DNA from: a virus
Direction: 5' to 3' (one strand)
Virus record (IMG/VR): IMGVR_UViG_3300042934_000313
Location: 1-61,491 of that record
DNA length: 61,491 nucleotides
The notes beneath the pieces are model-generated. The model did no database searches, had not been told where the DNA came from, and saw only the letters and a program-made list of their open reading frames with translations. Positions 26,506 through 60,992 of this stretch are shown here, piece after piece. Each line of letters begins with the position of its first letter. Within the stretch, counting starts at the first letter, position 1. The position numbers were made by a program, and so were the translations under genes.

Positions 26506-26513
26506 GGAGTCAC

Positions 26514-26846
26514 ATGTCGTACAACACTCTCGCAAGCATGCAGGAGGACTCGGCGCTGTACCGTCGCCTGGTCGCGTGTGCCGCAGAAGAGCAGAAGCCG
26601 GGATCGCCCTACGCCTGGGTCACCGAGCGCATCTGGCGGATCGTCACCGCCTCATCCGACTGGGAGGCATCGTGGGCCTACGCCGAGGCTGTGCCCATCG
26701 AGAACATCGGGGCCGATGAGAGCGTGATCACGGATGCCATGATCCTCGCGGTGATTCAGCCGATGGACGCTCCCGAGCCCGAGCCGGAGCCTGAGCCGGA
26801 GGTACCTCCTGTGGACCCCGAACCTGAGGATGTACCCTCGACGTAG
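26514..26846 (+). CDS. Hypothetical protein with Pro-Glu tail
   Basis: A 110-residue protein; ATG 26514 follows AAGGAG. The first 80 residues are helical (YRRLVACAAEEQKPGSPYAWVTERIW) and the C-terminal 30 residues are an extended acidic EPEPEPEPE segment ending DVPST. It lies between fibre and endolysin genes. It may be a virion component or fibre chaperone; no family is recognised. Confidence 0.6.
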   Translation: MSYNTLASMQEDSALYRRLVACAAEEQKPGSPYAWVTERIWRIVTASSDWEASWAYAEAVPIENIGADESVITDAMILAVIQPMDAPEPEPEPEPEVPPVDPEPEDVPST

Positions 26847-26884
26847 CGCTGGTTGTAGACCAGTTGCGCTCCGCACGTAGTGCC

Positions 26885-26899
26885 GAAAGTCTGACTTTC
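26885..26899. repeat. Palindrome site 6 (centre T)
   Basis: GAAAGTC-T-GACTTTC, perfect, in the 70-bp leader of the endolysin gene, just before its GTGAGGA ribosome site. Confidence 0.92.
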
Positions 26900-26916
26900 T
26901 CACGTGAGGAACCATC

Positions 26917-28812: not shown

Positions 28813-29237
28813 TGTTCTCGCACCTGCCGCCGAGACAGCGCACCTTCGTTCGGGTTGCGCTGTCTTCGGCGTGGGGAATGTCCGCCCTCGCCGGAGCATC
28901 GTCGCTCATCGTTGCTCCGGGGTGGACTCTCGGCGTCCTGGCTGTGACCACGGTCATTGCCGGGATCGCGCTGGCGAGCATGGCGTCACTTGCCGCCCTC
29001 GGAGTGATTCTCAACCGGTACCGCATGGAATGGGTCGCGGCATGGTTCTCCGCCGCGGCCTTCGCCCCCCACGTACTTGCCTACTGGTACTCCGTGTTCG
29101 CCGTGGACCTGGAGAGGCTGTCCCCGGCGTTTCTGATGACTGCACTGGTTGGGTTCTACATGTCGCGCGCGATCATGTGTGCGGCGCACGCTGAGCGCCT
29201 GCGTCTGTTGCACGAGGGGGAGACGAAGGATGAATGA
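28812..29237 (+). CDS. Multi-spanning membrane protein, lysis cassette
   Basis: A 141-residue protein overlapping the endolysin stop by one base. It has about four hydrophobic segments (residues 18-38, 41-66, 75-95, 105-125) and a charged C-terminal tail. Position right after the endolysin suggests a holin or holin partner, yet the next two genes are also membrane proteins, so the pore-former among the three cannot be fixed. Confidence 0.6.
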   Translation: MFSHLPPRQRTFVRVALSSAWGMSALAGASSLIVAPGWTLGVLAVTTVIAGIALASMASLAALGVILNRYRMEWVAAWFSAAAFAPHVLAYWYSVFAVDLERLSPAFLMTALVGFYMSRAIMCAAHAERLRLLHEGETKDE

Positions 29238-29628
29238 TGCGGTTGCGCCGTGGCTTCCGGTTCTGATCGCTATTGTGACGGGTCTGCTGGGTAGCGGTGG
29301 AGTAGCCGCATGGATGAAGCAGAGGCATGACAAGAAGGTCGGCATCGCGTCGCTCGAAGCGGCTGAGGACGAGGCCCTCGCCAACCGCTGGCGGGCGATC
29401 ATCGAGACGCAGACCAAGGCCCTGCTGGAACCGATGCAGAAGCGGCTCGCTGACGTGGAGGCCGAGGTCACTACGCTCAAGGTCGAACTCGAAGGAGCGC
29501 GGCGAAAGTACTGGTCGGCTATCTCGTACATCCGTACGCTGTTGACCTGGATCGCTCGGCACATGCCTGATGACGTAGAGCAGACACAGGTGCCGAGTCC
29601 CCCGACCACCGTGGTCGAGGACATCTGA
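29230..29628 (+). CDS. Single-TM coiled-coil protein, possible holin/spanin-like
   Basis: A 132-residue protein; ATG 29230 follows GACGAAGG and overlaps the previous gene by 8 bp. It has one N-terminal TM helix (residues 7-29) followed by about 70 residues of charged coiled coil (LLEPMQKRLADVEAEVTTLKVELEG). Similar topologies occur in actinophage lysis cassettes. Confidence 0.6.
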   Translation: MNDAVAPWLPVLIAIVTGLLGSGGVAAWMKQRHDKKVGIASLEAAEDEALANRWRAIIETQTKALLEPMQKRLADVEAEVTTLKVELEGARRKYWSAISYIRTLLTWIARHMPDDVEQTQVPSPPTTVVEDI

Positions 29629-29639
29629 GAGGAGTCCGA

Positions 29640-30083
29640 ATGGACATCGCAATCCCGGAAGGGATGACGGACGCGGCACTGCTCGCGGTCATCATCGGCT
29701 TCCTGGCACCGCTGGTGCTGAACTTCATCGTGAGTGCAACCTGGCCCGCATGGGCCAAGTCCCTCGCGGCATTCGTGTTCGCGGCCGTCGCTGGTATCCT
29801 GACGGCCTGGATCACCGGAGCGTTCCAGGGTCTTTCGATCCTGTCCACGGTCCTGCTCATCCTCGTGGTGTCGATCACGTCGTACCAGAACTTCTGGAAG
29901 CAGGTCGCCCCGAACATGCAGAGGGGTGCGGCCGAGAAGCAGGCACAGGATGAAGCGGCGAAGAAGGCGGAGATTGTCGAAGTCGCCGCCCCCGTCGCCG
30001 CGAACGTTGCCCAGCAGGTGGTCAACGATCAGACAGTTCTTCCTGAAATGCAGGACCCCACCGCCGAAGGGGCAGTGGGGTAA
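29640..30083 (+). CDS. Probable holin
   Basis: A 147-residue protein with three closely spaced TM helices in residues 12-85, a short N-terminal segment, and a long soluble Ala/Glu/Val-rich C-terminal tail. This resembles actinophage holins that time endolysin release. It is the last rightward gene and abuts, tail to tail, the first leftward gene at 30084. Confidence 0.65.
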   Translation: MDIAIPEGMTDAALLAVIIGFLAPLVLNFIVSATWPAWAKSLAAFVFAAVAGILTAWITGAFQGLSILSTVLLILVVSITSYQNFWKQVAPNMQRGAAEKQAQDEAAKKAEIVEVAAPVAANVAQQVVNDQTVLPEMQDPTAEGAVG

Positions 30084-30254
30084 TCAGGACAGGATGCGCT
30101 CGGTCTGCTTGGCGCTCTCGAAGATGGTGGAGTTGATCCGTTCCTTGTCGACGAGCGGTGCGTGAGTGGACAGAGCCAATGCGGTGACGACTGTCGCCCA
30201 GTCCTCCAAACGGAGGGTGACCTGGATGCACTGATTGCGGTCTGAACTAGCCAT
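30084..30254 (-). CDS. Hypothetical 56-residue protein
   Basis: The last gene of the leftward block, start ATG 30254 with AAGGGGACG upstream; an in-frame upstream ATG at 30305 would lie inside a terminator. The product is a compact mixed helix/strand protein (CIQVTLRLEDWATVVTALAL, ERINSTIFESAKQTE). No family recognised. It is isolated from upstream genes by the strong terminator at 30307-30348, so it may need its own promoter or read-through. Confidence 0.6.
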   Translation of the reverse strand: MASSDRNQCIQVTLRLEDWATVVTALALSTHAPLVDKERINSTIFESAKQTERILS

Positions 30255-30306
30255 GGATACGTCCCCTTGCACTCGTAGGATGGAGTCCTTGGTTGTTCCT
30301 ACCACG

Positions 30307-30348
30307 AAAAAGAAGGGCCAGACTTCGGGGGGAAGTCTGGCCCTTCTT
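30307..30348 (-). terminator. Strong rho-independent terminator, leftward
   Basis: A perfect 17-bp stem (30310-30326 with 30332-30348) around a 5-nt loop; in the leftward direction it is followed by TTTTTC. It terminates the long leftward transcript just before the last small gene. The rightward direction lacks a comparable T run. Confidence 0.88.
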
Positions 30349-30356
30349 GTGTCGTA

Positions 30357-30542
30357 CTAGAACCCCATCGCGAGGCGCGTGAGCCACACCCCGAGCGGGA
30401 CGAAGAACGACAGCACGATCACGCCGAGCACGATGAGGAACCCTGTCTGCTGGTGCCTCGTGTGCCGAGCGTTCTCGATCTTGATTCTGTCGTCGGCCGA
30501 CAGGCCCTCGTACTTGTCCACTGGTATCGGGTCCTCCATCAT
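30357..30542 (-). CDS. Small membrane protein (C-terminal TM)
   Basis: A 61-residue protein with an acidic N terminus and one C-terminal TM helix (FLIVLGVIVLSFFVPLGVWL). ATG 30542 overlaps the previous stop as TGATG; ATG 30539 is an alternative. Tail-anchored topology. Role unknown. Confidence 0.65.
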   Translation of the reverse strand: MMEDPIPVDKYEGLSADDRIKIENARHTRHQQTGFLIVLGVIVLSFFVPLGVWLTRLAMGF

Positions 30543-30706
30543 GCGGCCAGTCTCCTCAGGAGTTCCAGGTCGTAACGAATCTGGTCCGTCCAGATCGTCT
30601 TTTCTGTAGCCGACAGCGAGTACCGGCAGTCACCGCATAACGTGCCTCTGCGACCTCTCCTGAGGATGCCGCAACGCGCACACGGTCGGGGCAGATCGCC
30701 GCTCAT
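30539..30706 (-). CDS. Zinc-ribbon 55-residue protein
   Basis: Start ATG 30706 overlaps the upstream stop (ATGA). CARC and CGDC separated by 11 residues (GILRRGRRGTL) form a treble-clef/zinc-ribbon knuckle, followed by a helical C-terminal half (IRYDLELLRRLAA). The basic loop suggests nucleic-acid contact. One of many tiny zinc-binding proteins in this block. Confidence 0.65.
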   Translation of the reverse strand: MSGDLPRPCARCGILRRGRRGTLCGDCRYSLSATEKTIWTDQIRYDLELLRRLAA

Positions 30707-31464
30707 GCGACGAGCGTGTGATCCTTCTGGAGCAGACCACCGGTCAGATGGAACGACGGCGCGGTCATCGCCGGGTTGAACGTCATGTTGACCGTCATCC
30801 CAGTGATCGTCGGGAAAGTCTGACTTTCCACGATTCCGCCCGACGCGTAGGTCGGCGCGACCTGGACCACGGTCTTCGCAGAGCCGATCTTGCCGAACAT
30901 CGCGACATGCTCCTGCACCTGAGCCGCCGCCTTCTTCGCCGCCTCGCTGACCTCGACGAAGTAGTTCGACATGATCTGGTCGCCGGTCATCGAGGGGAGC
31001 ATGGCGTACCCGTCCGCGACCGGGGTCGGCTCGCCGGTGACCTGCTCCACGGCCGCGTAGTACAGGTCGTGGACACCCCACGGGTTGCTGTACCGACGAT
31101 CCTGGTTCTGGAGTTCCAGAGCCGCCTTGTAGATCGCGAGGGACTCGTCCCAGCGCTTGTTCCGGTCCTGGTGCATCTGTGCGCACCGCGCGGCGACGGA
31201 TGCCTTCAGCCCAAGGCCGTAGCCCTGAAGCACCGCGTGCGCGCCACGCTTGTCGGCCATGAGCGGGAGGTCCACGCCCAACTCGGCCAGCGCGGCACCG
31301 ATGAGGCAGGTCGCCTCGCCGAGCGCGTTCTGGTACGTCGGCGATCCGCCACCGGGGGTGTAGTAGCCGTTGCTCCCCGGCTCACCCCAGCGCGGGTAGC
31401 GGTAGTCGCCGCCGCGCTTCTCGACAGCACGCTCCATCGCCGCCGTGAAATCCTTCTCCTGCAT
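30703..31464 (-). CDS. Hypothetical 253-residue protein
   Basis: ATG 31464 is chosen because AGGAAAGGAACAACC precedes it. The first 160 residues are helical with motifs CLIGAALAELGVDLP and GYGLGLKASVAARCAQMHQDRNKRW, resembling conserved phage proteins of unknown function with a possible helical nucleotide- or metal-binding core. The C-terminal 80 residues are beta-rich. Palindrome site 7 lies inside and encodes ESQTF. No function assigned. Confidence 0.6.
   Translation of the reverse strand: MQEKDFTAAMERAVEKRGGDYRYPRWGEPGSNGYYTPGGGSPTYQNALGEATCLIGAALAELGVDLPLMADKRGAHAVLQGYGLGLKASVAARCAQMHQDRNKRWDESLAIYKAALELQNQDRRYSNPWGVHDLYYAAVEQVTGEPTPVADGYAMLPSMTGDQIMSNYFVEVSEAAKKAAAQVQEHVAMFGKIGSAKTVVQVAPTYASGGIVESQTFPTITGMTVNMTFNPAMTAPSFHLTGGLLQKDHTLVA
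30814..30828. repeat. Palindrome site 7 (centre T), inside CDS
   Basis: GAAAGTC-T-GACTTTC, perfect, within the 253-residue protein gene. Confidence 0.92.
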
Positions 31465-31478
31465 GGTTGTTCCTTTCC

Positions 31479-31970
31479 TCACACTCGACCTTGGGCATAC
31501 GACACCAGCCGCCACAGCGCTTCGCGGAAGGGGTCGTCGGAGGCGTCAAGGTCGAACAACGCCTCCATGTCTTCGTTGCGCCGAAGGTGGTTCTCCACGA
31601 GGGAGGCCGCATCCAGCGTTTCCCGGTCGGCCTTGTGCACCACGCCGTGTGCCTCGGTCGGCCGATCGTTCACGTACTCCGGCAGGACATACACCTTGCA
31701 CCGACCGCGAGTTTCGGTCAAGCGGGCCAACTTCCCCACCTTGTGCAAGACGCTCAGCGCCCCGCTCACGCGTCCGTGATGCAGGGTGCTGTCCCGCAGT
31801 TCAGCGACCGTGATTCCCTTCTCCTTGGCCCTTCCAGCCAGGATGAGGATGAATCTCTGCCGCTTGCTGGCGGTGCCCTTCACCACATCGTCCTGAGCCC
31901 TCTGCTTCGAGGTCTCAGAACCGGCGTAGCCCTCCGTCCCCGCATAGGGGAGGGCTGTCTCATCAGTCAT
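31479..31970 (-). CDS. Winged-helix-like DNA-binding protein
   Basis: A 163-residue protein. Residues 35-100 (RFILILAGRAKEKGITVAELRD, GRVSGALSVLHKVGKLARLTE, CKVYVLPEY) give a helix-turn-helix followed by a wing strand, as in transcriptional or replication regulators of phages. The C-terminal 50 residues are acidic and helical. The gene overlaps the upstream gene by 8 bp. It is a candidate for binding one of the repeat families, without direct evidence. Confidence 0.65.
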   Translation of the reverse strand: MTDETALPYAGTEGYAGSETSKQRAQDDVVKGTASKRQRFILILAGRAKEKGITVAELRDSTLHHGRVSGALSVLHKVGKLARLTETRGRCKVYVLPEYVNDRPTEAHGVVHKADRETLDAASLVENHLRRNEDMEALFDLDASDDPFREALWRLVSYAQGRV

Positions 31971-32256
31971 GCTCTTCCTCCGTCACGAACTCGATGTATC
32001 CCAACTTCCGAGCCATGGCGAAGATCGGGTCGTCGTCAGCGAACCGGTCGTACCAGCCTCGGCATACGGCATCCTCTTCGCCGCCGCCAGCGATGGTCGT
32101 CTTGTGGCAGATGAAGGAAGCACCGTCCTCATCCTTGGTCTCTCGGACTATCTCGGCGACCCGAGCGCCCGGCACGATCCGGTTCGGCGTGAACGCACAG
32201 GCATTGCACTCCTTGCCGATGACGTGCACCTTGCCGTCCCGGTAGATCGTGGCCAC
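31963..32256 (-). CDS. Cysteine-containing hypothetical protein
   Basis: A 97-residue protein with CNAC, CHKT and CRGWYDR motifs that could bind one zinc ion. The pattern TPNRIVPGARVAEIV before the CH motif and CRGW/CRGF after it recurs in actinobacterial and phage hypotheticals. Role unknown; translationally coupled to neighbours on both sides. Confidence 0.6.
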   Translation of the reverse strand: MATIYRDGKVHVIGKECNACAFTPNRIVPGARVAEIVRETKDEDGASFICHKTTIAGGGEEDAVCRGWYDRFADDDPIFAMARKLGYIEFVTEEEHD

Positions 32257-32257
32257 G

Positions 32258-32572
32258 TCACACCTTCCTTGCCCACTTCGGCGGCTTCCAGTCCTCGATG
32301 GTCGTCGGCTCCTGGAGCGGCAGACCGTTGAGTTCGGTCACCAGGATGTCCTTGGCCATGTGGACGGATGCCAGCAGTTCCTCGTACCGGCGCTTGTACC
32401 CGGCCTGTGAGCCGGGGCTGTCGGCGTACCGCTGGAGCATGAAGTTCGCATGCCGCAGTCTGCGAATCTCCGAGCGGAGGCGAGCGTTCTCGTCGTTCGC
32501 CGCCGCCGCCCTTCGCTGTGCGTGCCTGCGCTGGCTCTTCGCCTGCGCCAGTTGTTCCTCCAGGGTCAGCAT
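32258..32572 (-). CDS. Coiled-coil hypothetical protein
   Basis: A 104-residue protein; ATG 32572 follows GGAGG and overlaps the upstream stop (TGATG). Residues 1-55 form a basic, Arg/Gln-rich coiled coil (LEEQLAQAKSQRRHAQRRAA). The C terminus has LNGLPLQEPTTIEDWKPPKW. Oligomeric nucleic-acid-associated protein is a guess. Confidence 0.55.
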   Translation of the reverse strand: MLTLEEQLAQAKSQRRHAQRRAAAANDENARLRSEIRRLRHANFMLQRYADSPGSQAGYKRRYEELLASVHMAKDILVTELNGLPLQEPTTIEDWKPPKWARKV

Positions 32573-32832
32573 CAGCCCAACCTCCATCGTGGTGTCCCGC
32601 AGACGGGGCACCACATCTGCTCTTCGCAGGCGGGACACTCGATGCGCCCACCCTCCAGTGGTCCGGTGTTCTTCTCGTCCCAGTCGAGGGGGAGGCCGCA
32701 CAGGGCGGTCACGAACTCCGGCCGAGGGTTCGCCAGGACATGGCACTCCTCGTGGACCAGATGACGCATCCCGTCGTCGGTGTCCTCTTCCGTAGAAAGT
32801 ACGACTTTCTCGTCGTCAAGAATCTGTGTCAT
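32572..32832 (-). CDS. Zinc-ribbon protein, 86 residues
   Basis: ATG 32832 overlaps the upstream gene by 17 bp. The C-terminal CPAC-x5-CPVC motif is a compact zinc knuckle; the middle has HEECHVLANPRPEFVTALCGLPLDW, resembling phage zinc-binding hypotheticals. Palindrome site 8 lies in the first codons (DEKVVLSTEE). Confidence 0.6.
   Translation of the reverse strand: MTQILDDEKVVLSTEEDTDDGMRHLVHEECHVLANPRPEFVTALCGLPLDWDEKNTGPLEGGRIECPACEEQMWCPVCGTPRWRLG
32795..32809. repeat. Palindrome site 8 (centre C), inside CDS
   Basis: GAAAGTA-C-GACTTTC, one arm mismatch, near the 5' end of a leftward gene. Confidence 0.75.
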
Positions 32833-33100
32833 GTGCGTGCACCCAGATCGTGTGGTTCTCGTCAAGGTCCTTCGCCACGATCGCCTCACGGCAGACGCCG
32901 CAGACCCAGACCATCTCGACATCATGCTCGGGCATCATGGCCAGAGTTGCCTCAGCACCCTGCTTCGCGGCGTCGGCGAGCAGGTTCCGCAGAGAGTCCG
33001 TTCCGACCATGGTGACGGAGCCGACCTTGCTGGTGACCTTCTTGTACCTGTCCGACGCCATGATCGAATCGGCCACCTGCTCGAAGAATGAGTCGGTCAT
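32816..33100 (-). CDS. Hypothetical protein with CGVC motif
   Basis: A 94-residue protein. The N terminus (FFEQVADSIMASDRYKKVTSK) and middle are helical; the C terminus holds WVCGVCREAIVAKDLDENHTIWVHAH, with two Cys and two His spaced for a zinc site. Start overlaps the previous stop (ATGA). Unrecognised family. Confidence 0.6.
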   Translation of the reverse strand: MTDSFFEQVADSIMASDRYKKVTSKVGSVTMVGTDSLRNLLADAAKQGAEATLAMMPEHDVEMVWVCGVCREAIVAKDLDENHTIWVHAHDTDS

Positions 33101-33465
33101 GCCTTGTCCTCCACGTGCTGTGCTGAGCGGGTGTCGACCTTGCGAGCCACGGTCATCAGCGCTTCGACACTGATGTGCGGCCCGAAGATACGAAGCCCTT
33201 GGTACTCGAAGTTCTCACGAGCCTCGTGCTCCCAGTACCTCAGGAAGAGGCCGAAGATCACCTGGACCAGTTCGGAGTGGGTGGAGTGCTCCGAGGGATA
33301 AGCCTTCCCGCCGAAGCCCCAGTCCCACTCGCCCGTGATGACATCGCGCCGCCAACACTTGATCTGGACGAAGGGTCCCTTCGCGTCCTCCTCCACGCGG
33401 ACGGTGCACTTCATGCCGAGAGTGATGTCGGCCGCGATTTCCTGGAGTCGTTCGAGGAGCGTCAT
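33097..33465 (-). CDS. Hypothetical 122-residue protein
   Basis: ATG 33465 follows GGAGG. An alpha-beta protein with VEEDAKGPFVQIKCWRRD strands and a Trp/Glu-rich C-terminal region (LRYWEHEARENFEYQGLR). Coupled to both neighbours by four-base overlaps. No family recognised. Confidence 0.55.
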   Translation of the reverse strand: MTLLERLQEIAADITLGMKCTVRVEEDAKGPFVQIKCWRRDVITGEWDWGFGGKAYPSEHSTHSELVQVIFGLFLRYWEHEARENFEYQGLRIFGPHISVEALMTVARKVDTRSAQHVEDKA

Positions 33466-34010
33466 TCGGGAACCTCCGCCAGCGCCTTGTCGATGTCCTG
33501 CACGGCGCGCTTCCAGCCGCATGCCACCGTGTCGTCGTCAGGATGAACGTTGCACTCAGGGTGGTTCGAGCGGGCGGTCTTGATCCGCTCGATCACGTCT
33601 GCCTGCTTGTTCACCGTGTCGATGAGCGCCTTCTCCGAGTCGGTGTGGTCGCCACGGAGTTGCTCGTTCTCGCGCTCGCTGTACTCACGCTGGCCGCGCT
33701 CACCACGGATGACGAGAGCCTGCCCAAAGTGGAGTTCTGCCAGAGCGCGGACCAGTTCGTCCTCGTTGGCCCCGACCGCATCGGCCTGGTCGAAGAACCC
33801 CTGGATGATTTCCAGGCTCTTCTCGATAGTCGGCGGATTCTCCGGCTCGCTGATCACGAACGGGTTGTAGTCGTCGGCCGCAGGCGATGCCATTACCACG
33901 ACCCCCATCGGCTTGACCGCATCCGCGAGGATGCCGAGGTTGGCGGAACCGTCGACATAACCGCGCAGTTCGATGTCCACCCCACGCAGTGTGACTCGTG
34001 CTCTGGTCAT
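33462..34010 (-). CDS. Hypothetical 182-residue protein
   Basis: ATG 34010 follows GGGGGGAACCTGTC. An N-terminal beta region (VTLRGVDIELRGYVDGSANLG) is followed by long helices (GFFDQADAVGANEDELVRALAELHF, ENEQLRGDHTDSEKALIDTVN) and a final Cys-His-Cys segment. A helical adaptor is plausible; no known family. Confidence 0.55.
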   Translation of the reverse strand: MTRARVTLRGVDIELRGYVDGSANLGILADAVKPMGVVVMASPAADDYNPFVISEPENPPTIEKSLEIIQGFFDQADAVGANEDELVRALAELHFGQALVIRGERGQREYSERENEQLRGDHTDSEKALIDTVNKQADVIERIKTARSNHPECNVHPDDDTVACGWKRAVQDIDKALAEVPE

Positions 34011-34309
34011 GACAGGTTCCCCCCTTGTAGTGCCTCCTCGTTGACAATGACGCGGGTGCCGTCTGGCTTGATCCGCATGAGTTCGCCGTCGTGGTGCCAC
34101 TTCGCGGCAGTCCCATCGGCGATGAAGTGCTTGTGGTCGTAGACGAATGCCCACGCGGTGCCGAACACCTGGCCCGCGATTCGGTGCGCGGCATCCAGGC
34201 TGACGGCCTCGATGACCGCGTACCCGTTCTTCTGCATCCGAAGTGGGTGTCGTTCCGAGTTGACCGACTGTCCGTATTGGACGCCGAAGGTCACGTAGAA
34301 ATCTTCCAT
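34007..34309 (-). CDS. Hypothetical 100-residue protein, first gene after promoter
   Basis: ATG 34309 follows GAGAGAGAAG and lies about 25 bases downstream of the promoter at 34335-34363; the upstream ATG at 34363 would fall inside that promoter. Product is alpha-beta (FYVTFGVQYGQSV, YAVIEAVSLDAAHRIAGQVFGTAWAFVYD), resembling a small family of phage and actinobacterial hypotheticals with an AHRIA helix. Function unknown. Confidence 0.65.
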   Translation of the reverse strand: MEDFYVTFGVQYGQSVNSERHPLRMQKNGYAVIEAVSLDAAHRIAGQVFGTAWAFVYDHKHFIADGTAAKWHHDGELMRIKPDGTRVIVNEEALQGGNLS

Positions 34310-34334
34310 CTTCTCTCTCTCGGTTATGTGGTAC

Positions 34335-34363
34335 AGAATACTGTAGAAAGTCGGACTATTCAA
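34335..34363 (-). promoter_or_regulatory. Sigma70-like promoter with palindrome in spacer
   Basis: Leftward: -35 TTGAAT (34358-34363), 17-bp spacer, -10 TATTCT (34335-34340). A degenerate palindrome copy (34346-34360) fills the spacer and overlaps the -35, so a protein bound there would block polymerase. It would drive 34309 to about 30357. Confidence 0.75.
34346..34360. repeat. Palindrome site 9 (centre G, degenerate)
   Basis: GAAAGTC-G-GACTATT, two mismatches in the right arm where the bases double as the -35 element. Confidence 0.7.
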
Positions 34364-34366
34364 GAG

Positions 34367-34403
34367 GAGCGGGGGGAGGGGTGTTCAAGTCCTCCCCCCG
34401 CTC
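34367..34403 (-). terminator. GC-rich hairpin upstream of the 34.3-kb promoter
   Basis: A 13-bp perfect stem (34367-34379 with 34391-34403) around an 11-nt loop. It directly precedes the promoter in the leftward direction, separating the 34.4-42 kb operon from the next. No T run. Confidence 0.6.
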
Positions 34404-34427
34404 GGACGCGCCACCAGGGAGGGCGCG

Positions 34428-34625
34428 TCAGTCCGGAGTGGGGGAATCTCCGGACGTTTGTGTGGGGCCAGCGCGCCTCCACTCTTCGTCAGCGCGCTTC
34501 CACTGCTCCATTTCTTCGGCGTCGCGGATGCGTGCCGAACGGTCCCAGTACCATGCGATTGCCCAGCCTACGAGCAATGCGGCGCAGAGACCACAGGCGA
34601 TGAGCACTACGACGATGGGCTTCAT
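34428..34625 (-). CDS. Small single-TM membrane protein
   Basis: A 65-residue protein; ATG 34625 overlaps the VWA gene stop (ATGA). TM helix at residues 2-24 (KPIVVVLIACGLCAALLVGW), then a charged cytoplasmic-like helix (RIRDAEEMEQWKRADEEWRR). Co-translated with the VWA protein, it could be its membrane anchor; this is inference. Confidence 0.65.
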   Translation of the reverse strand: MKPIVVVLIACGLCAALLVGWAIAWYWDRSARIRDAEEMEQWKRADEEWRRAGPTQTSGDSPTPD

Positions 34626-35251
34626 GCCGTGCTCGCCTCTTCGCGCTCCTCGTCGGTGTACTCGGCCGAGAGTCCCGAGCGGGTGCGCGTGACGAGGTTG
34701 CTGGTGCCCGCGTAGGCCGACGCGAATGACTGCCCGGTTCCTGCCACCGAGATGGTCGAGCCCTTGGCGAAGCCGTAGGCTCCACCGGTGGCGAACGCAT
34801 CGACGTTGGCGGCGAGGTAGACGAAGGTCCACGACCACTTCTCGGTCTGCTCCGTCACCATCGCCTTGACCTGAGCCGCGGTGAACTCACGGCTGGAGTT
34901 CTCCTGGCCGTCCGTCGCGATGACCACGATGACGTGAGCCGGACGCTTCTCTTCCGGCATGGTCCTGAACTTGTTGCCAAGCCGCAGGATCATGAGGCCG
35001 ATCGCGTCGTTCAGCGCGGTGCCCCCGCGCGGAGCCACGAGGTCGGAGGGAACGTCGGCCACGGCCGCATCCGTGGCCACGAACTCGACGACGGAATCGA
35101 AGGTGCACACGTCGACCTTGAGGGTCCCCGGTTCCTTCGCCTGGTCGCTGAGCAACTGCGCGATTGCCCCGTTCACGTCGTCGACGATCGTCTGCATGGA
35201 CCCCGACGAGTCGACGACCAGGGCCAGGTGGGTGTAGTTCTCGTCGGTCAT
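34622..35251 (-). CDS. von Willebrand factor A domain protein
   Basis: A 209-residue single VWA domain. MIDAS residues are visible: DSSGS at about 14-18, Thr in RGGTALNDAI at about 83, and ATDG at about 122. This metal-dependent fold mediates protein-protein contacts, often with AAA+ ATPases. No signal peptide, so probably cytoplasmic. ATG 35251 overlaps the upstream stop. Similar VWA proteins relate to tellurite-resistance TerY/TerD-type systems; in phages the role is unknown. Confidence 0.82.
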   Translation of the reverse strand: MTDENYTHLALVVDSSGSMQTIVDDVNGAIAQLLSDQAKEPGTLKVDVCTFDSVVEFVATDAAVADVPSDLVAPRGGTALNDAIGLMILRLGNKFRTMPEEKRPAHVIVVIATDGQENSSREFTAAQVKAMVTEQTEKWSWTFVYLAANVDAFATGGAYGFAKGSTISVAGTGQSFASAYAGTSNLVTRTRSGLSAEYTDEEREEASTA

Positions 35252-35460
35252 AGTTCCTCCTCGATGATGACTTGCGCAAACGCCACAGCGGCCTTGCACT
35301 GGCGACACTCGCACTCGGAGGCGTCGCCTTCCTCCGCTTCCCACTTCTTCACTTCGAGAGTGGCGTTGAGAACCTCGTAGATCGCCGCCTCAACGGGGTC
35401 GTCGCCGAGCGGCTCCCCGAGCACGGCCAGGGCTTTCTCGATGGTCTCCATCTGGGTCAT
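35248..35460 (-). CDS. Small acidic protein with CxCxxC
   Basis: A 70-residue acidic protein. Helical (AIYEVLNATLEVKKWEAEEG) with CECRQC near residue 50 that could bind a metal. Overlaps the VWA gene start by four bases. Start 35460 or 35451. Family unrecognised. Confidence 0.6.
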   Translation of the reverse strand: MTQMETIEKALAVLGEPLGDDPVEAAIYEVLNATLEVKKWEAEEGDASECECRQCKAAVAFAQVIIEEEL

Positions 35461-35624
35461 CAGTAACTCGCTTCCAGGATCGTCTCGCAGATCATCCGGG
35501 CCGCGGTCATGATGGTCTTCTCCAGCGCCATGATGTCGCCCTGGCTGGCGGGTCGGCTGGCATACGGGAGGCTTCGGTCGATCTGGTCCTCTCGTGCCGC
35601 GAGGATTTTCTCGGCGTCGGTCAT
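35460..35624 (-). CDS. Small helical protein, 54 residues
   Basis: ATG 35624 overlaps the stop of the tiny zinc-ribbon gene upstream. The product is helical (DAEKILAAREDQIDRSLPY, DIMALEKTIMTAARMICETIL). No motif for function. Confidence 0.55.
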   Translation of the reverse strand: MTDAEKILAAREDQIDRSLPYASRPASQGDIMALEKTIMTAARMICETILEASY

Positions 35625-35701
35625 CGTACGTCCACCCCCTCGAAGATGCACTGGCAGTCGCGCCCCTCGTAGGGCTCGCCGCAGTGCTCGCAGACGGTCA
35701 T
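35621..35701 (-). CDS. 26-residue zinc-knuckle peptide
   Basis: A tiny gene filling the gap between two coupled genes: ATG 35701 overlaps the lipoprotein stop and TGA 35621-35623 overlaps the next ATG. Product MTVCEHCGEPYEGRDCQCIF plus six residues; CEHC and CQC make a minimal zinc site. Perfect ATGA coupling on both sides supports translation. Confidence 0.6.
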   Translation of the reverse strand: MTVCEHCGEPYEGRDCQCIFEGVDVR

Positions 35702-35967
35702 TCTCTTGCTCCTTCCCAGTTGCAGTCGAGGCCACTGGCCTTGGTTTCATTCCACGAGTCGTACTCGCTCCACGTCACACAGATCAGGGTGCGCCCGTCG
35801 TTGAGCGTGATGATGTTCTCGCGGAACGCGCTGTCGTTCGCGTTCTGACGAACGGTGGACGGCGCTTCGGGTACCGGGGTCTCCTCCGAAAAGTCGGACT
35901 TTTGGCTGGCGCATCCGGCCAGGGCCAGGGCGGCGACCAGCGCCGCCCCGACCATGACCTTCTTCAT
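35698..35967 (-). CDS. Small lipoprotein
   Basis: An 89-residue protein with a lipoprotein signal peptide: MKKVMVGAALVAALALAGC, lipobox LALAGC with Cys 19. The mature part is short and acidic; its first residues (SQKSDFSEE) are encoded by palindrome site 10. It would be exported and lipid-anchored on the outer face of the host membrane. Small phage lipoproteins can block superinfection (inference). ATG 35967 follows AAGG. Confidence 0.78.
   Translation of the reverse strand: MKKVMVGAALVAALALAGCASQKSDFSEETPVPEAPSTVRQNANDSAFRENIITLNDGRTLICVTWSEYDSWNETKASGLDCNWEGARE
35889..35903. repeat. Palindrome site 10 (centre G), inside lipoprotein gene
   Basis: AAAAGTC-G-GACTTTT, perfect inverted arms, in codons just after the lipobox cysteine. 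Confidence 0.88.
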
Positions 35968-36305
35968 GACTCCGGCTCGCCTTCGAGGAGGACGATTTCG
36001 ACCTCCGCCTGCCCGAACCACTCGGCGATCGTGCCACCCGTCCGCAGGTGCGTGATCAGAGCGAGGAGGGACCGGATGATTTCTCCGGGCTTGTCCCCGC
36101 CCTTCGCCACCAGGACCTCGATCATCTCGTGGGTCATCTCCTCCGCGCGCTTCTCGCGCTCCGAGCCAGGGTCGGCGAGGAGGTATTCCGTTGAGACGGT
36201 GATGAGGGCGGCGGTGGCGGCGAGCAACTTCTGGTACGCCTCCGCCTCTGCCTCGCCGTAGTGCTCACGCATTTCAGCCAGATGGGTCTTCTCCTCGGCG
36301 CTCAC
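35964..36305 (-). CDS. Helical acidic protein, 113 residues
   Basis: A mainly helical protein (EKTHLAEMREHYGEAEAEAY, RAEEMTHEMIEVLVAKGG) between the SPFH and lipoprotein genes, overlapping both by four bases. No signal or TM. It may be a cytoplasmic partner of the SPFH protein; unproven. Confidence 0.6.
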   Translation of the reverse strand: MSAEEKTHLAEMREHYGEAEAEAYQKLLAATAALITVSTEYLLADPGSEREKRAEEMTHEMIEVLVAKGGDKPGEIIRSLLALITHLRTGGTIAEWFGQAEVEIVLLEGEPES

Positions 36306-37207
36306 TGGGGCGCTCCTGCGAAGTTGCCCAGGCCGGTGAAGCCCTCGGGGACGACGATCAGGTTGGCGTTCTCCAGCACGTCGTAGTACCTCTGCTGGAG
36401 AACCTGCGGGGTCAGCGACTCCGTGAGGATGCGGTTCGCCTCGGCCTCGGCGGACGCCACAGCGATCTTCTGCTGGGCGTCAACCTTCGCCTTCTCCAGA
36501 TCGGCCTGCGCCTTGACGACCTCGGTCTGCGCGTTCTGCGCCTCCTCGAAGCGGACCTTCACGGCCTCGGAGTAGCGAACCTCCTGCATCGACACGTCCT
36601 CGATGATGATGCCCTTGTCCTTCCACTCGGCCTCAAGGGCCTCGCGGATGTCGTTTGCCACCTTGGCGCGCTCGGTCAGCATTTCGATCGTGGTGTACCG
36701 GCCGGGGATGTCACGCGGGACGGAGCGGATGTCCTGCTCGATGACCTTCGTGCGGAAGTCATCCTGGTTCTGGTACTGCTCGACGAGCGCCTCCACCTTC
36801 TTCGGGTCGATGGAGTACAGGACCACCAGGTCCATGTTCGCGGAGACACCATCCTTGTCGGTGAAGGTGATCTGCGGACCGTTGGTGGGCGAGCCGTTGT
36901 ACGTCTGGTTGCCGTCGCCGAGGAACACGGACAACTGGTTGCGCACGTCGAAGTCGATCGCGTCGACCCACGGCTCCTTCCAGTGAGGGCCAGGTGCCGA
37001 CTCGGAACCCTGCACCACACCAGTCCAGTCCTTCATGACCTTCGCCTCGCCGGGCTCGATCGTGTAGTACGTGGAGAAGATGAAGAACATGAGGCCGAGC
37101 AGGCCGGTGAAGATGCCGCCCGCGATGACCCACCCGTTGCGGACGATGAGACCGATCGCGAGCACTATGGCCGCGATGATCCATACGATGATTGCGAAGA
37201 CGAACAC
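36302..37207 (-). CDS. SPFH/band-7 (prohibitin-like) membrane protein
   Basis: A 301-residue protein. Residues 1-48 hold two hydrophobic segments, then YYTIEPGEAKVMKDWTGVV begins the SPFH domain, and residues 200-265 form the typical coiled coil (FEEAQNAQTEVVKAQADLEKA, EAEANRILTESL). These proteins form large membrane rings that organise proteases or microdomains. The GTG start lies one base after palindrome site 11 with no Shine-Dalgarno sequence. Phage prohibitin-like proteins are known but their role is not settled. Confidence 0.85.
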   Translation of the reverse strand: MFVFAIIVWIIAAIVLAIGLIVRNGWVIAGGIFTGLLGLMFFIFSTYYTIEPGEAKVMKDWTGVVQGSESAPGPHWKEPWVDAIDFDVRNQLSVFLGDGNQTYNGSPTNGPQITFTDKDGVSANMDLVVLYSIDPKKVEALVEQYQNQDDFRTKVIEQDIRSVPRDIPGRYTTIEMLTERAKVANDIREALEAEWKDKGIIIEDVSMQEVRYSEAVKVRFEEAQNAQTEVVKAQADLEKAKVDAQQKIAVASAEAEANRILTESLTPQVLQQRYYDVLENANLIVVPEGFTGLGNFAGAPQ

Positions 37208-37208
37208 G

Positions 37209-37223
37209 AAAAGTCCTACTTTC
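37209..37223. repeat. Palindrome site 11 (centre C)
   Basis: AAAAGTC-C-TACTTTC, one arm mismatch, one base upstream of the SPFH start codon. Confidence 0.8.
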
Positions 37224-37227
37224 TGGC

Positions 37228-37821
37228 CTACGCGGCCGGTGCGTAGTCGGGCTCGGAAGCCGCGACAGCGGAGTCGGAAGGCGTTCCCTGCAATGCCTTC
37301 TCGACGAGTTCGTTCGCTTCTCTCTGCGAACGAGCCTTGACGGTGGTGTGGAACTGCACACCGTTGACGGTCTTGTTGACCGTGAAGTCGCGCGGTCGTC
37401 CGGGGATGCCGAGTTTCGCGGTCAGCGCGTCGTACTGCGGGCAGTACCCCTGCTGGTCAGCGAACTTGCCCATGTCCTCGAACAGCCATTGGATGCCGGG
37501 GTGGTCGACGCCGATGAACTCATCGCCCTCCGGCTTCCGGCCCAACTTGCGCGGCGCGGGACGGTTCGGATCGGACAGTTGCAGTTGGTGGAGCATGAAC
37601 GAGAACGACATCTCCTCATTGCGCCCGGTCCACCGGTTCTCTTTGCGTTCGAGAGAACGCACATTGACCGACTCCGCGAAGATGGATGTGACCCGGAAGA
37701 CTTCTTGCGTCTGGATTCGGTATCGCCGAGTCGTGTTCAGCCGGTAGTAATCATCGGTCTGCACCACTTGGACTTCCATGCCGATGTAGAGGTCACCGTG
37801 TGGAATCTCTGATAGCCGCAT
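37228..37821 (-). CDS. Hypothetical 197-residue protein
   Basis: An N-terminal beta domain (LYIGMEVQVVQTDDYYRLNTT, RVTSIFAESVNVRSLERK) looks like a small barrel; residues 95-135 are DEFIGVDHPGIQWLFEDMGKF-like helices, and the C terminus is low complexity. First large gene upstream of SPFH. Unrecognised. Confidence 0.6.
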   Translation of the reverse strand: MRLSEIPHGDLYIGMEVQVVQTDDYYRLNTTRRYRIQTQEVFRVTSIFAESVNVRSLERKENRWTGRNEEMSFSFMLHQLQLSDPNRPAPRKLGRKPEGDEFIGVDHPGIQWLFEDMGKFADQQGYCPQYDALTAKLGIPGRPRDFTVNKTVNGVQFHTTVKARSQREANELVEKALQGTPSDSAVAASEPDYAPAA

Positions 37822-37830
37822 TGCTCTCTC

Positions 37831-38001
37831 CTATCTCTGGTACTTGTTGACGTTGAACGGGTTGGTGTACTTCTGCCGCGCTTCCAGGTACGCGGCCCTG
37901 ATCTTCTTGATGGTCGCCGTGTTGATCGACTCCTTCTCGGCAACCGAGAGGACTACTGCCAGTTGGGCGACCTGGGCCATGTAGAACGCGCTGTCCTTCA
38001 T
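37831..38001 (-). CDS. Hypothetical 56-residue helical protein
   Basis: ATG 38001 overlaps the upstream TM-peptide stop. The product (FYMAQVAQLAVVLSVAEKES, TIKKIRAAYLEARQKYTNPF) is two helices with a basic C-terminal half. No family recognised. Confidence 0.55.
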   Translation of the reverse strand: MKDSAFYMAQVAQLAVVLSVAEKESINTATIKKIRAAYLEARQKYTNPFNVNKYQR

Positions 38002-38117
38002 CCGAGAACCACCGCCACCACGGTGCCCGCTGTCACGATCACCAAGAGCGCGATCAGCGAGATAAGCGGCCAGGTCCACGGAGAGCGCTCCTTGCGCTTG
38101 TGCTGTCCCTGGTTCAC
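37998..38117 (-). CDS. 39-residue single-TM peptide
   Basis: GTG start at 38117 overlaps the upstream TGA (GTGA), and its stop overlaps the next ATG. A basic N terminus (NQGQHKRKERSPWTW) precedes one TM helix (PLISLIALLVIVTAGTVVAV). Positive-inside rule predicts the N terminus in the cytoplasm. Coupling on both sides supports reality. Confidence 0.6.
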   Translation of the reverse strand: MNQGQHKRKERSPWTWPLISLIALLVIVTAGTVVAVVLG

Positions 38118-38887
38118 GCGCGCCACACACGGACTTCCACTTCGAGGCCGGATGCCGCGACGCTGGTGAAGTAGTCGCCGAGCGTCATGTGCATGGGCAA
38201 CTTGCTCAGGTCCACGACCCATGAGTCATGGGTGTCGAGGAACTCCCGCTCGCCGAGACTCTTGAGCCGGGCGACCTCGGCCTCATCCCGCGTGGGATTC
38301 ATGGCCTCCTCGTACGCCTCGGCCTCCGCCAGCGTCAGCGGCGGCTGGAAAGTCGGACTTTCTGTCTCCGCCACTCGGCCTACCTCCGGCGCTCCGGTCA
38401 GCCAGTCCTCTTGCTTCGGCTTCTTGGCGAGAATCTCCTCGGGCACGATCCAGTCACGAGCGCCACGCTTTCCCTTCACGGGGGTGAAGCCCATCTGGTA
38501 CATCGCCCTCGTCGCCGTGATGTGCACCATCTCGGTGTGGTCGACGAGTTCCTTCACCGTGAGGACTTCGGGGAAGCCGGTCTCCACGATGTAGTCGATC
38601 ACCTTCTGCTTCGTCCGTGCCGCCACGGCCGGGCCTTCGGTGATGTTGGACGGAAGTTCCCGCACGTCCTTCGGGTCATCTGGGTGTCGCACGCCAGCCC
38701 TCCTCAGTCGAGCCATGAGATTGATCGGAGCCCGCACATCGCTGTTCGTGAAATGCAGGCTGGTGGTCTCTCCGTCCGGTAGCCGGAGCAAGAGACCCTT
38801 CGTGGTCCTGGTGACGCCTACGCCCTGTTCCTCCATGGATCGGACGAAGCGTTCGATCGCTGATGCGGTCATCGTCTTACTCGGCAT
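38114..38887 (-). CDS. Possible winged-helix protein, 257 residues
   Basis: ATG 38887 overlaps the upstream gene by 11 bp; ATG 38872 is an alternative. Residues 20-60 (TRTTKGLLLRLPDGETTSLHF) resemble a small beta unit; residues 85-145 (TKQKVIDYIVETGFPEVLTVKELVDHTEM, GFTPVKGKRGARDWIVPEE) look like a winged helix. Palindrome site 12 encodes ESPTF in the linker. A DNA-binding regulator is plausible. Confidence 0.55.
   Translation of the reverse strand: MPSKTMTASAIERFVRSMEEQGVGVTRTTKGLLLRLPDGETTSLHFTNSDVRAPINLMARLRRAGVRHPDDPKDVRELPSNITEGPAVAARTKQKVIDYIVETGFPEVLTVKELVDHTEMVHITATRAMYQMGFTPVKGKRGARDWIVPEEILAKKPKQEDWLTGAPEVGRVAETESPTFQPPLTLAEAEAYEEAMNPTRDEAEVARLKSLGEREFLDTHDSWVVDLSKLPMHMTLGDYFTSVAASGLEVEVRVWRA
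38348..38362. repeat. Palindrome site 12 (centre G), inside CDS
   Basis: GAAAGTC-G-GACTTTC, perfect, within the 257-residue protein gene. Confidence 0.92.
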
Positions 38888-39221
38888 CCGTAGACACCCC
38901 CTCCGCGGCGCTGTGCGCCCCGTCTGCGGGAGAAACCCATGGCCCGGTAGGCAGGGGCACCCCTGAGGCGTTCGTGTCGTCCTGGTGCCACAGGACGCGC
39001 TGGTACCACCGATCGCTCGGCGTGCGCCAGAACCATGCTGACAGCGCACCGATGATGACGGTGATGATGAGACTGAGCCCGGCGCACACGAAGTTCCAGA
39101 ACATCGCATCGGGGCCGACTGCCGCCAGCGTGTTGCGAGCGAAGATCAACGTCAACGCCGCCATGCCGACGAGTGGGATCAGAAGCAGGTGACCGGTCCA
39201 GCACCACAGCCAGCGCTTCAT
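38877..39221 (-). CDS. Two-TM membrane protein
   Basis: A 114-residue protein with TM helices at residues 8-29 (WTGHLLLIPLVGMAALTLIF) and 40-65 (FWNFVCAGLSLIITVIIGAL), then a soluble Pro/Gly-rich tail. Overlaps neighbours. Part of the membrane-rich stretch 34.4-39.2 kb. Role unknown. Confidence 0.62.
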   Translation of the reverse strand: MKRWLWCWTGHLLLIPLVGMAALTLIFARNTLAAVGPDAMFWNFVCAGLSLIITVIIGALSAWFWRTPSDRWYQRVLWHQDDTNASGVPLPTGPWVSPADGAHSAAEGVSTDAE

Positions 39222-39487
39222 TGCTTGAACCAGATCGACTGGGCCATGACGGCCTGTTGCGTCTCGGCGAAGCCGGGGATGGTCACGAGTGCGACCTTCT
39301 CCTCCGGCGTCAGATCGCGTAGGCCGAGAGTCCCATCCTCGTTCTCGGTGTACGCCGATGGGATCGCGCAGTACAGGCAGAGCGCGATGTCCCCTGGCTC
39401 CGGCGTCTCGTCGCCGTTGCCAATCTCCGTTGCCCCATCGACCTCTTGGTCACATGATGGGCACTTGGCCTTGATTTCCCTGGTCAT
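39218..39487 (-). CDS. Zinc-ribbon protein, 89 residues
   Basis: CPSC near residue 9 and CLYC near residue 37 form a zinc ribbon; between them a Gly/Glu-rich loop. The C terminus (LRDLTPEEKVALVTIPGFAETQQAV) is helical. Similar small ribbons appear in phages and actinobacteria; role unknown. Confidence 0.65.
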   Translation of the reverse strand: MTREIKAKCPSCDQEVDGATEIGNGDETPEPGDIALCLYCAIPSAYTENEDGTLGLRDLTPEEKVALVTIPGFAETQQAVMAQSIWFKQ

Positions 39488-39502
39488 TTCCTCTTTCCTC
39501 TC

Positions 39503-39847
39503 TCATGCGGTGAAGCCCTTGAACCACGGGTCCACCAGTTGCCCGTACTCCCGGACGGAGTACGCGGTCTTGCCAATGAGGTCTTCGGTCACGAGACCGA
39601 CCCCCACGTTCTTCGCCGCCTCCACGATTCCCCTCGTGTCGACATCGTTCAAGAGCCCGTACATCTGGACCCCGAACGCCATGCGCCGCAGGGCCTCGGT
39701 GACTTCCTCCATCCGCCCCGCCTGCTTCGCCGCCGTGATCGCGTACTTCGGATGCGGGAACCCCGCCGCCGCGTACGCCGTCTCGATCGCGAATATCCGA
39801 TCCAGCGTCAACTCGTCGACCATGCCGACGAGTTCGTCTGCCGTCAC
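39503..39847 (-). CDS. Hypothetical 114-residue helical protein
   Basis: Helical protein (DRIFAIETAYAAAGFPHPKYA, RMEEVTEALRRMAFGVQMYG). Start overlaps the Cas4-like gene stop (ATGA), so it is co-translated with the nuclease. No recognised family. Confidence 0.6.
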   Translation of the reverse strand: MTADELVGMVDELTLDRIFAIETAYAAAGFPHPKYAITAAKQAGRMEEVTEALRRMAFGVQMYGLLNDVDTRGIVEAAKNVGVGLVTEDLIGKTAYSVREYGQLVDPWFKGFTA

Positions 39848-40761
39848 GGCTTGACCTTCGTGACGTAGAGCGTGTTCTCAGTCGCCCAGTTGACGCTGTA
39901 CCCGCTCGGCGTCCTGCCCGAGACTCCCCTCAGGGCCTCGCGCAGTTCGCGCCGCTCGACTGTCGCCGAGTCCTGTGTCTCTCGCACATGAACGAACTTG
40001 TCGACGAGGGCGATGACCTCCTCGTCCTCGATCACTTCGTTCGGGTTCCACTCGGACCCCTCCCAGCACAGGTCACGGAACGGACACATCACCCGCGGCG
40101 AGTAGCAGAACGGCGGGGTCTTGTCCCGCAGGCTCCGCGCCCACTCGACCTCACCCTTGTCGATGTGCTCCTGTGCCGTCATCACATCATCGAGCCGACT
40201 CATCAGCACGTCGATGAAGTAGTTGATCCGCTCCCACCCGAGGGTGACTTCGTAGATGTCCTGCTCCTGGCCAGACCGATCGACGTAGAGCAGGGATGCC
40301 GTGGCACCCTCGCTCAGCACGCCCGCCTGCACCAGACCCAGCACGTAGATGCTGACCTGGATGCAGTTCTCCAGCGACGGGCCATTCTTGCGCACGTCAG
40401 AAAGTCCGACTTTCGACTTCAAGTCGGCCAGCGCGTTCCGCTCCGGGAACACCATGTCCGCTGTGCCCGACGACCTGAGCCCGTTGGGCAGGGTCGCCGT
40501 CACCGGCACCTGGGTCACTGCACCCAGAGACTCCTGGGCGACAGCCTCCAGGTGGTCGCCGAGCAGGGTGCCGACGACTGCGGCCGTGGGCCACTCGCTG
40601 TTGCCCTGGACCGGAGCCCCGACCATGACGTTCCTGATGTACTCGCGGCACCCGCCGAGTTCCGAGGGTCCGAGCCGCATCTGCTGACTGCGGGGCCTAC
40701 GGTTCTCATGCTCCACCAGAGCCGCGAGCAGTTCGTCACCGAGCACCGGCCGACCGGTCAT
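39844..40761 (-). CDS. Cas4-like RecB-family exonuclease
   Basis: A 305-residue PD-(D/E)xK nuclease. His 70 (GDHLE), Asp 102 (GTADMVF) and DLKSK (113-117) form the active site, with the QVSIY motif near 135. Cys 38 plus Cys 219, 226 and 232 fit the iron-sulphur cluster of Cas4. No CRISPR array or other cas genes are present, and it sits next to a Rad52-like annealing protein, so a recombination exonuclease is likely. Palindrome site 13 lies inside. Confidence 0.85.
   Translation of the reverse strand: MTGRPVLGDELLAALVEHENRRPRSQQMRLGPSELGGCREYIRNVMVGAPVQGNSEWPTAAVVGTLLGDHLEAVAQESLGAVTQVPVTATLPNGLRSSGTADMVFPERNALADLKSKVGLSDVRKNGPSLENCIQVSIYVLGLVQAGVLSEGATASLLYVDRSGQEQDIYEVTLGWERINYFIDVLMSRLDDVMTAQEHIDKGEVEWARSLRDKTPPFCYSPRVMCPFRDLCWEGSEWNPNEVIEDEEVIALVDKFVHVRETQDSATVERRELREALRGVSGRTPSGYSVNWATENTLYVTKVKP
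40400..40414. repeat. Palindrome site 13 (centre C), inside nuclease gene
   Basis: GAAAGTC-C-GACTTTC, perfect; overlaps codons of the catalytic DLKSK region. Confidence 0.92.
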
Positions 40762-59133: not shown

Positions 59134-59155
59134 GATGGCTCTCTCTTTCTGTCCA

Positions 59156-59171
59156 GAAAGTCTGGACTTTT
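59156..59171. repeat. Palindrome site 37 (2-nt centre TG)
   Basis: GAAAGTC-TG-GACTTTT in the leader of the cassette A gene. Confidence 0.9.
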
Positions 59172-59463: not shown

Positions 59464-59479
59464 AAAAGTCCCGACTTTT
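59464..59479. repeat. Palindrome site 38 (2-nt centre CC)
   Basis: AAAAGTC-CC-GACTTTT, immediately after the rightward terminator. Confidence 0.88.
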
Positions 59480-59502
59480 TGGACCTCCAGTCCTCGTTTC
59501 GT

Positions 59503-60823: not shown

Positions 60824-60960
60824 GAGCGGGTGGAGTAGGCGCGCAGAGTCGCCTCGTTCTTAAGCCCCTCGCCAACTGTCGAACACAAACCCGACAGATA
60901 CGACTCTCCCACTCGGTATGCAACTTTCTGCAAGTGCTGGTCAGGGGCCTCCACCCGCTC
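60824..60960 (+). ncRNA. Candidate structured RNA, five helices and a possible pseudoknot
   Basis: In a 177-bp gap. P1 pairs GAGCGGGTGGAG (60824-60835) with CTCCACCCGCTC (60949-60960), 12 bp perfect. P2 is hairpin AGGCG/CGCCT (60837-60841/60850-60854). P3 pairs GCCCCT (60864-60869) with AGGGGC (60943-60948), contiguous with P1. P4 hairpin CTGTCG/CGACAG (about 60876-60898). P5 pairs CACT+TGCA (60910-60922) with TGCA+AGTG (60929-60936). Loop AGAGT (60845-60849) can pair with ACTCT (60903-60907). No known family recognised; strand inferred from neighbouring genes. Confidence 0.65.
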
Positions 60961-60992
60961 AGAGGGACAGCCTACCTGGTAATGTCCCACGT

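Follow-up and report, generated by a model that had tools for sequence, protein, structure and literature searches.

A structured segment between two genes

The window analysed here, a stretch of 61,491 nucleotides of viral DNA (IMG/VR record IMGVR_UViG_3300042934_000313), carries terminase, portal and tape-measure genes and, between two genes, a 137-nt segment (60824-60960) that an earlier note had described as a multi-branched structured RNA. The questions raised by this locus are whether the segment is indeed an RNA, on which strand it is encoded and what it might do for the phage.

Folded on the plus strand, the 137 nt reach a minimum free energy (MFE) of -59.2 kcal/mol (z = -4.46), a value equalled by none of 200 shuffled sequences, and form a helix of 12 bp that closes the structure, a 6-bp helix stacked on it and hairpins, much as the note had it. 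The minus strand folds at -63.8 (z = -3.85). No family was matched when 60824-60960 was searched against Rfam 15. As a whole, it is virtually certain that the segment belongs to a real family of structured RNAs, lying on the minus strand of the window.

The 5' end of the RNA is on the 60960 side, i.e. on the DNA strand opposite to the one first read. This assignment is based on the homologues, the neighbouring tRNA genes, the covariance model and the counts of G-U vs. A.C oppositions, which on the RNA's strand are 41 vs. 16 in subtype C and 14 vs. 3 in subtype A (the subtypes are described below). The lower MFE was also found on this strand in 41 of 45 subtype C and 9 of 10 subtype A sequences.

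The segment had also been read as a plus-strand leader or riboswitch of the open reading frame starting at 60992. The ATG is indeed there, 32 nt past the element, and the plus strand folds too, yet the RNA is on the strand opposite that frame, the homologues have unrelated neighbours with no conserved downstream gene, about ten loci are antisense to both of their neighbours, and Rhodococcus phage REQ2 possesses the element and nothing of its surroundings. Nor is the pseudoknot proposed between AGAGT and ACTCT conserved: over 10 same-subtype homologues, 76.7% of the positions are paired vs. 76.0% after shuffling, with no double-sided change. Cis-regulation of the following start codon is hence barely credible.

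The window's RNA, of subtype A, comprises the following parts:

60824..60960, minus strand: whole RNA module, with predicted ends (5' end at about 60960, 3' end at about 60824); 89.5% identical to the REQ2 block and matched by covariance model R1
60949..60960, minus strand: 5' strand of P1, GAGCGGGUGGAG; the inner GGAG is invariant, the outer part variable in sequence, yet paired
60943..60948, minus strand: 5' strand of P2, GCCCCU; double changes in 4 of 5 counted pairs in subtype A
60909..60940, minus strand: P3 domain; CCA (60940-60938) pairs with UGG (60911-60909)
60923..60935, minus strand: P4 hairpin; ACU (60935-60933) pairs with AGU (60925-60923)
60876..60897, minus strand: P5 hairpin, in subtype A only; CUGUCG (60897-60892) pairs with CGACAG (60881-60876)
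60864..60869, minus strand: 3' strand of P2, AGGGGC; covariation in subtype A
60854..60863, minus strand: invariant junction strand UUAAGAACGA, kept as xxAAxACGA in the other subtypes
60838..60853, minus strand: core 3' hairpin GGCG-ACUCUGCG-CGCC, followed by UA at 60837-60836
60824..60835, minus strand: 3' strand of P1, CUCCACCCGCUC; covariation in subtypes A and C

Covariation of the helices

Among the 45 aligned sequences of subtype C, the largest subtype, the 30 named pairs are 93% paired and 21 of them show changes on both sides. The covariation score is 0.527, vs. 0.190 for shuffled alignments and no more than 0.094 when the structure was slid; none of 500 shuffles reached the observed value, and 267 double-change cells were counted vs. 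88 after shuffling. For subtype A, window included (10 sequences), the score is 0.387 vs. 0.139 (0 of 500 shuffles), and the homologous P1-P4 yield 13 pairs with double changes.

P1, P2, P3 and P4 are thus supported by compensatory changes. In P1, 6 of 10 pairs changed on both sides in subtype A and as many in subtype C, where the homologous P3 and P4 show double changes in 4 of 5 and 3 of 3 pairs, respectively. The stems had all been called perfect, but on the minus strand the window's P3 forms only 3 of the 5 family pairs, the other two being mismatched. Concerning P5, 93% of its cells in subtype A are paired, with zero double changes. A pseudoknot contact between columns 37 and 117 covaries in subtype C (C-G 29, U-A 6, A-U 4).

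The stem of the core 3' hairpin is invariant in all aligned members, with U-A, C-G or A.G as closing pair; this hairpin was among the features searched for, and part of its invariance therefore follows from how the members were collected. Most loci were fetched via this 3' core, whereas the covariation and the matches to inner domains (e.g. Acinetobacter phage SR and contig L113) are independent of it.

Homologues and distribution

By blastn, the window shares with REQ2 only this stretch (132 nt, 89.5% identity, unannotated in that phage), and not its surroundings. Weaker matches, limited to the core, were obtained in Arthrobacter, Rhodococcus (ReT1v), Stenotrophomonas and Serratia jumbo phages, and the phage loci derived from blastn have the ends TGGAGTAGGCG..CCTCGT..CTCCA in common. 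Pattern scans returned 69, 73 and 43 viral contigs, as well as 19 bacterial contigs, of which 10 are genuine members. The other nine (L083-L085, L088, L091, L094, L097, L099 and L100) were excluded as apparent chance hits, most of them within coding sequence. Members were also found in Enterococcus and Listeria phages; L124, a relative of L123, matched Enterococcus phages.

The covariance model R1 was built from subtype C alone, without the window's subtype A. It nevertheless matches the window over its full length at 60826-60958, on the minus strand only (70.1 bits, E = 1.7e-16), as well as SR (82.3 bits) and every subtype A or B member searched; more distant loci scored lower. Through R1, the window shows the core by which membership was judged, P1-GAGR-P2 ... 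AAxACGAGG-hairpin-CCUA-P1'.

As a whole, the phages with homologues infect Rhodococcus, Arthrobacter, Microbacterium, Enterococcus, Listeria, Stenotrophomonas, Acinetobacter, Serratia, Erwinia, Achromobacter and Escherichia, i.e. hosts from at least three phyla (Actinomycetota, Pseudomonadota and Bacillota). In each of 15 annotated phage genomes, R1 found one copy. The suggestion of a phage non-coding RNA is supported: the RNA gene shows covariation and is carried by phages as a single copy. Among bacterial genomes, 7 of 101 from Arthrobacter have an R1 match, a sporadic distribution as for prophages, and, of 5426 E. coli genomes, 116 cover at least 80% of a query made of the CUS-3-type module with its flank. 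With this query, the 'lambda' matches in E. coli correspond to flanking sequence, not to the RNA. No match was found in the plasmids searched.

In the phage records inspected, the element is never annotated as RNA. Searches of open-licence papers on structured RNAs linked to phage tRNAs yielded GOLLD and ROOL, but no account of the window's element, and the family is apparently undescribed so far.

Subtypes, inner domains and apparent permuted forms

Across the family, a constant core holds differing inner domains. Subtype A comprises the window and REQ2, subtype B Kumotta and QuinnAvery, subtype C Teacup, Elesar, Jojan60 and SR, subtype E CUS-3, and subtype F the Enterococcus-type members. 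Subtype D, present in jumbo and other phages, has what appears to be a tRNA-like inner domain with odd anticodon loops. Types B (L125, L176) and C (L113, L103) also occur in Proteobacteria, the host phylum being taken from the record for SR and deduced from the module's flanks for the metagenome contigs L113, L125 and L176. This recurrence shows that inner domains were exchanged between phages of different phyla.

In five loci (L124, L132, L144, L163 and L211), the module seems to stand where an outer tRNA-like domain would have its anticodon region, which is the place of the tmRNA insert. The outer domains were read by eye and their acceptor/T-arm pairing was found by script; each 7-bp acceptor match is weak evidence individually, and it is the constant offset that persuades. 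Seven loci (L110, L127, L161 and L185-L188) appear to carry the module in circularly permuted form. Both the tRNA-like domains and the permutation are readings of the sequence. For subtypes A, B and C no tRNA-like fold was demonstrated, and the putative tRNA likeness of the family comes from the other subtypes.

A permuted tmRNA in Achromobacter phage JWDelta has the module within its spacer, and the match of the Rfam model tmRNA_permuted (95.8 bits) spans the module. Of note, this permuted tmRNA of an N4-like phage (L105, 1784-2168), the tag ending of which is readable, is absent from the record's annotation of this stretch. Another unannotated RNA adjoins the module, directly downstream, in Stenotrophomonas phage Jojan60 (L016, 1370-1452, minus strand): it is an 83-nt tag-less tmRNA-like RNA (Rfam tmRNA, 61.8 bits), with 5 nt in place of the model's 292-nt tag/pseudoknot part, a G3-U70 pair in the acceptor stem, and intact D-loop and T-arm.

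The putative permuted forms of the module and its position in a permuted tmRNA spacer would suit a ribozyme, or a processing or circularisation element that cleaves or joins tRNA or tmRNA precursors, as would the strong conservation of the unpaired core and the RtcB-type RNA ligase gene lying directly upstream of the module in two loci with different RNA subtypes (L048, 4-1092; L063, 2722-3894). We consider this improbable: RtcB is adjacent in only 2 of 56 loci, no known ribozyme family was matched, and the actinophage RNA lies beside tRNAs and not within one, many loci being distant from any tRNA.

Genomic context and association with tRNA genes

Counted up to 500 nt from the RNA, 123 tRNA genes are on the same strand and none on the opposite one. 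Loci with a tRNA at this distance number 27 of 76 and 22 of 69, vs. 7.3 and 8.9 at random positions (maximum of 14 in 500 trials), and are therefore 2.5 to 3.7 times commoner than expected at random. In L033, the RNA is in the middle of an array, with 18 tRNAs before and 12 after it. Most actinophage loci have no tRNA within 500 nt. In the window, the 2.5 kb around the RNA hold no tRNA, neither a promoter nor a terminator consensus occurs close by, and a search for relatives of the neighbouring 157-aa gene product found none. Inverted repeats resembling GAAAGTCxGACTTTC recur between 52000 and 59500 of the window, in gaps between minus-strand genes (e.g. 59150-59170 and 59465-59495); these are possibly repeated promoter or operator sites.

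The RNA is often located at the start of the late region. The order is Q-RNA-S in CUS-3, ArpU-RNA-TerS-TerL in phiFL2A, DUF722-RNA-HNH in Listeria B025 and RNA-hypothetical-TerS-TerL in Elesar; among the recognised downstream families, terminases, HNH and portal proteins are the commonest. This position also fits a role in cis. The element would then be the earliest structured RNA on the late transcript and act, like put, as a nascent-RNA antiterminator that modifies RNA polymerase and allows read-through of the long late operon and of untranslated tRNA arrays. The repeated location between a late regulator and late genes (CUS-3, phiFL2A, B025) and the downstream families favour this, but the RNA runs antisense to the genes on either side in about ten loci, e.g. 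between portal and prohead protease genes, as well as in the window, and elsewhere it lies in mid-array (L033), in tmRNA spacers or in putative tRNA-like domains. Moreover, put of phage HK022 is described as suppressing termination in early operons (PMC9378689), and HK022 25500-40751 has no R1 match. Antitermination is accordingly judged unlikely. The antisense placement favours a separate RNA gene over a leader.

In many phages, the RNA is near the genome ends and the terminase genes, as might be expected of a DNA-packaging RNA (pRNA-like) or another virion-assembly RNA. This is very unlikely, since the members in jumbo phages and tRNA arrays are distant from terminase, the CUS-3 RNA is beside lysis genes, and the strand association with tRNAs is left unexplained.

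Two observations were made on neighbouring sequences of lambdoid phages. The E. coli prophages L218 (about 1073-1225) and L216 (about 1420-1510; lambda-like) have, at the CUS-3 position between Q and S, module-free sequences with tRNA-acceptor-like ends, GUUGUG...CACAACCCA; these appear to fill, in place of the module, a tRNA-like slot of the lambdoid late leader. In L111 (about 4290-4390), a long hairpin, UAAGAGCAUUG...CAGUGCUCUUA, is present upstream of the module; in lambdoid Q-S gaps, that of the lambda-like prophage included, this hairpin comes before the tRNA-like region.

Comparison with known RNAs

GOLLD and ROOL are RNAs of phages and prophages found near tRNA islands, with unknown function; GOLLD has a conserved 3' region and is less conserved elsewhere, and its linker sometimes holds phage tRNAs (PMC12286853). 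Many GOLLD members exceed 800 nt. The window's family resembles GOLLD in being a structured phage RNA near tRNA islands with a conserved 3' region and a less conserved remainder, but measures only about 130-200 nt. ROOL occupies the same genomic niche with a different and much larger structure. The family loci matched neither the GOLLD nor the ROOL Rfam models, at gathering or permissive thresholds.

As for tmRNA (RF00023) and permuted tmRNA (RF04321), some members appear to place the module at the site of the long insert, between D-arm and T-arm. However, the module has no match of its own, the Rfam tmRNA matches adjoining or surrounding it, most members are without an acceptor domain, and no tag reading frame that would accompany a tRNA-like domain in the same RNA was recognised. 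T4 species 1 and 2 RNAs (rnaC and rnaD) are, according to their annotation, small and stable RNAs that the phage produces together with a tRNA cluster; R1 had no match in the T4 region, nor in lambda. HK022 put is comparable as a phage RNA acting on phage transcription, a role that the late-leader position would suit. Finally, bacterial Y RNA (YrlA, RF02553) did not match the module, giving only a sub-threshold 25.9 bits inside the tRNAs neighbouring it in L005.

Proposed role

Since the module lies next to, around and, as it seems, inside tRNA-like and tmRNA domains, we tentatively favour a trans-acting structured RNA, transcribed late and processed like tRNAs, that would act in the tRNA or translation machinery as a mimic, a handle or a decoy. 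The RNA gene on the window's minus strand would be transcribed from a late-leader or tRNA-cluster region, and the RNA probably excised from its transcript as the surrounding tRNAs are. The three-way core (P1, P2, junction AAGAACGA and 3' hairpin) would carry the exchangeable inner domain and serve as a handle through which a domain resembling tRNA, or competing with it, could engage a factor that handles tRNAs. Candidates for this factor are the ribosome, a synthetase or a defence nuclease that cuts tRNAs; in the last case, the RNA would be a decoy.

It is possible, if rather doubtful, that these RNAs form a new class of phage RNA machines: a conserved three-way core with swapped inner domains (tRNA-like, pseudoknotted or other), spread over several phyla and sometimes set within an outer tRNA-like domain or permuted, would provide effectors or decoys that mimic tRNAs and counter host systems handling or cutting tRNAs. 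The strong conservation, the single copy and the presence in three phyla of an RNA with no Rfam family point to an overlooked basic function of phages, and its link with tRNA arrays and tmRNA may be part of the reason why phages keep such arrays. As laboratory phages (e.g. Arthrobacter phages Teacup and Kumotta) carry the RNA, its role is open to direct deletion tests.
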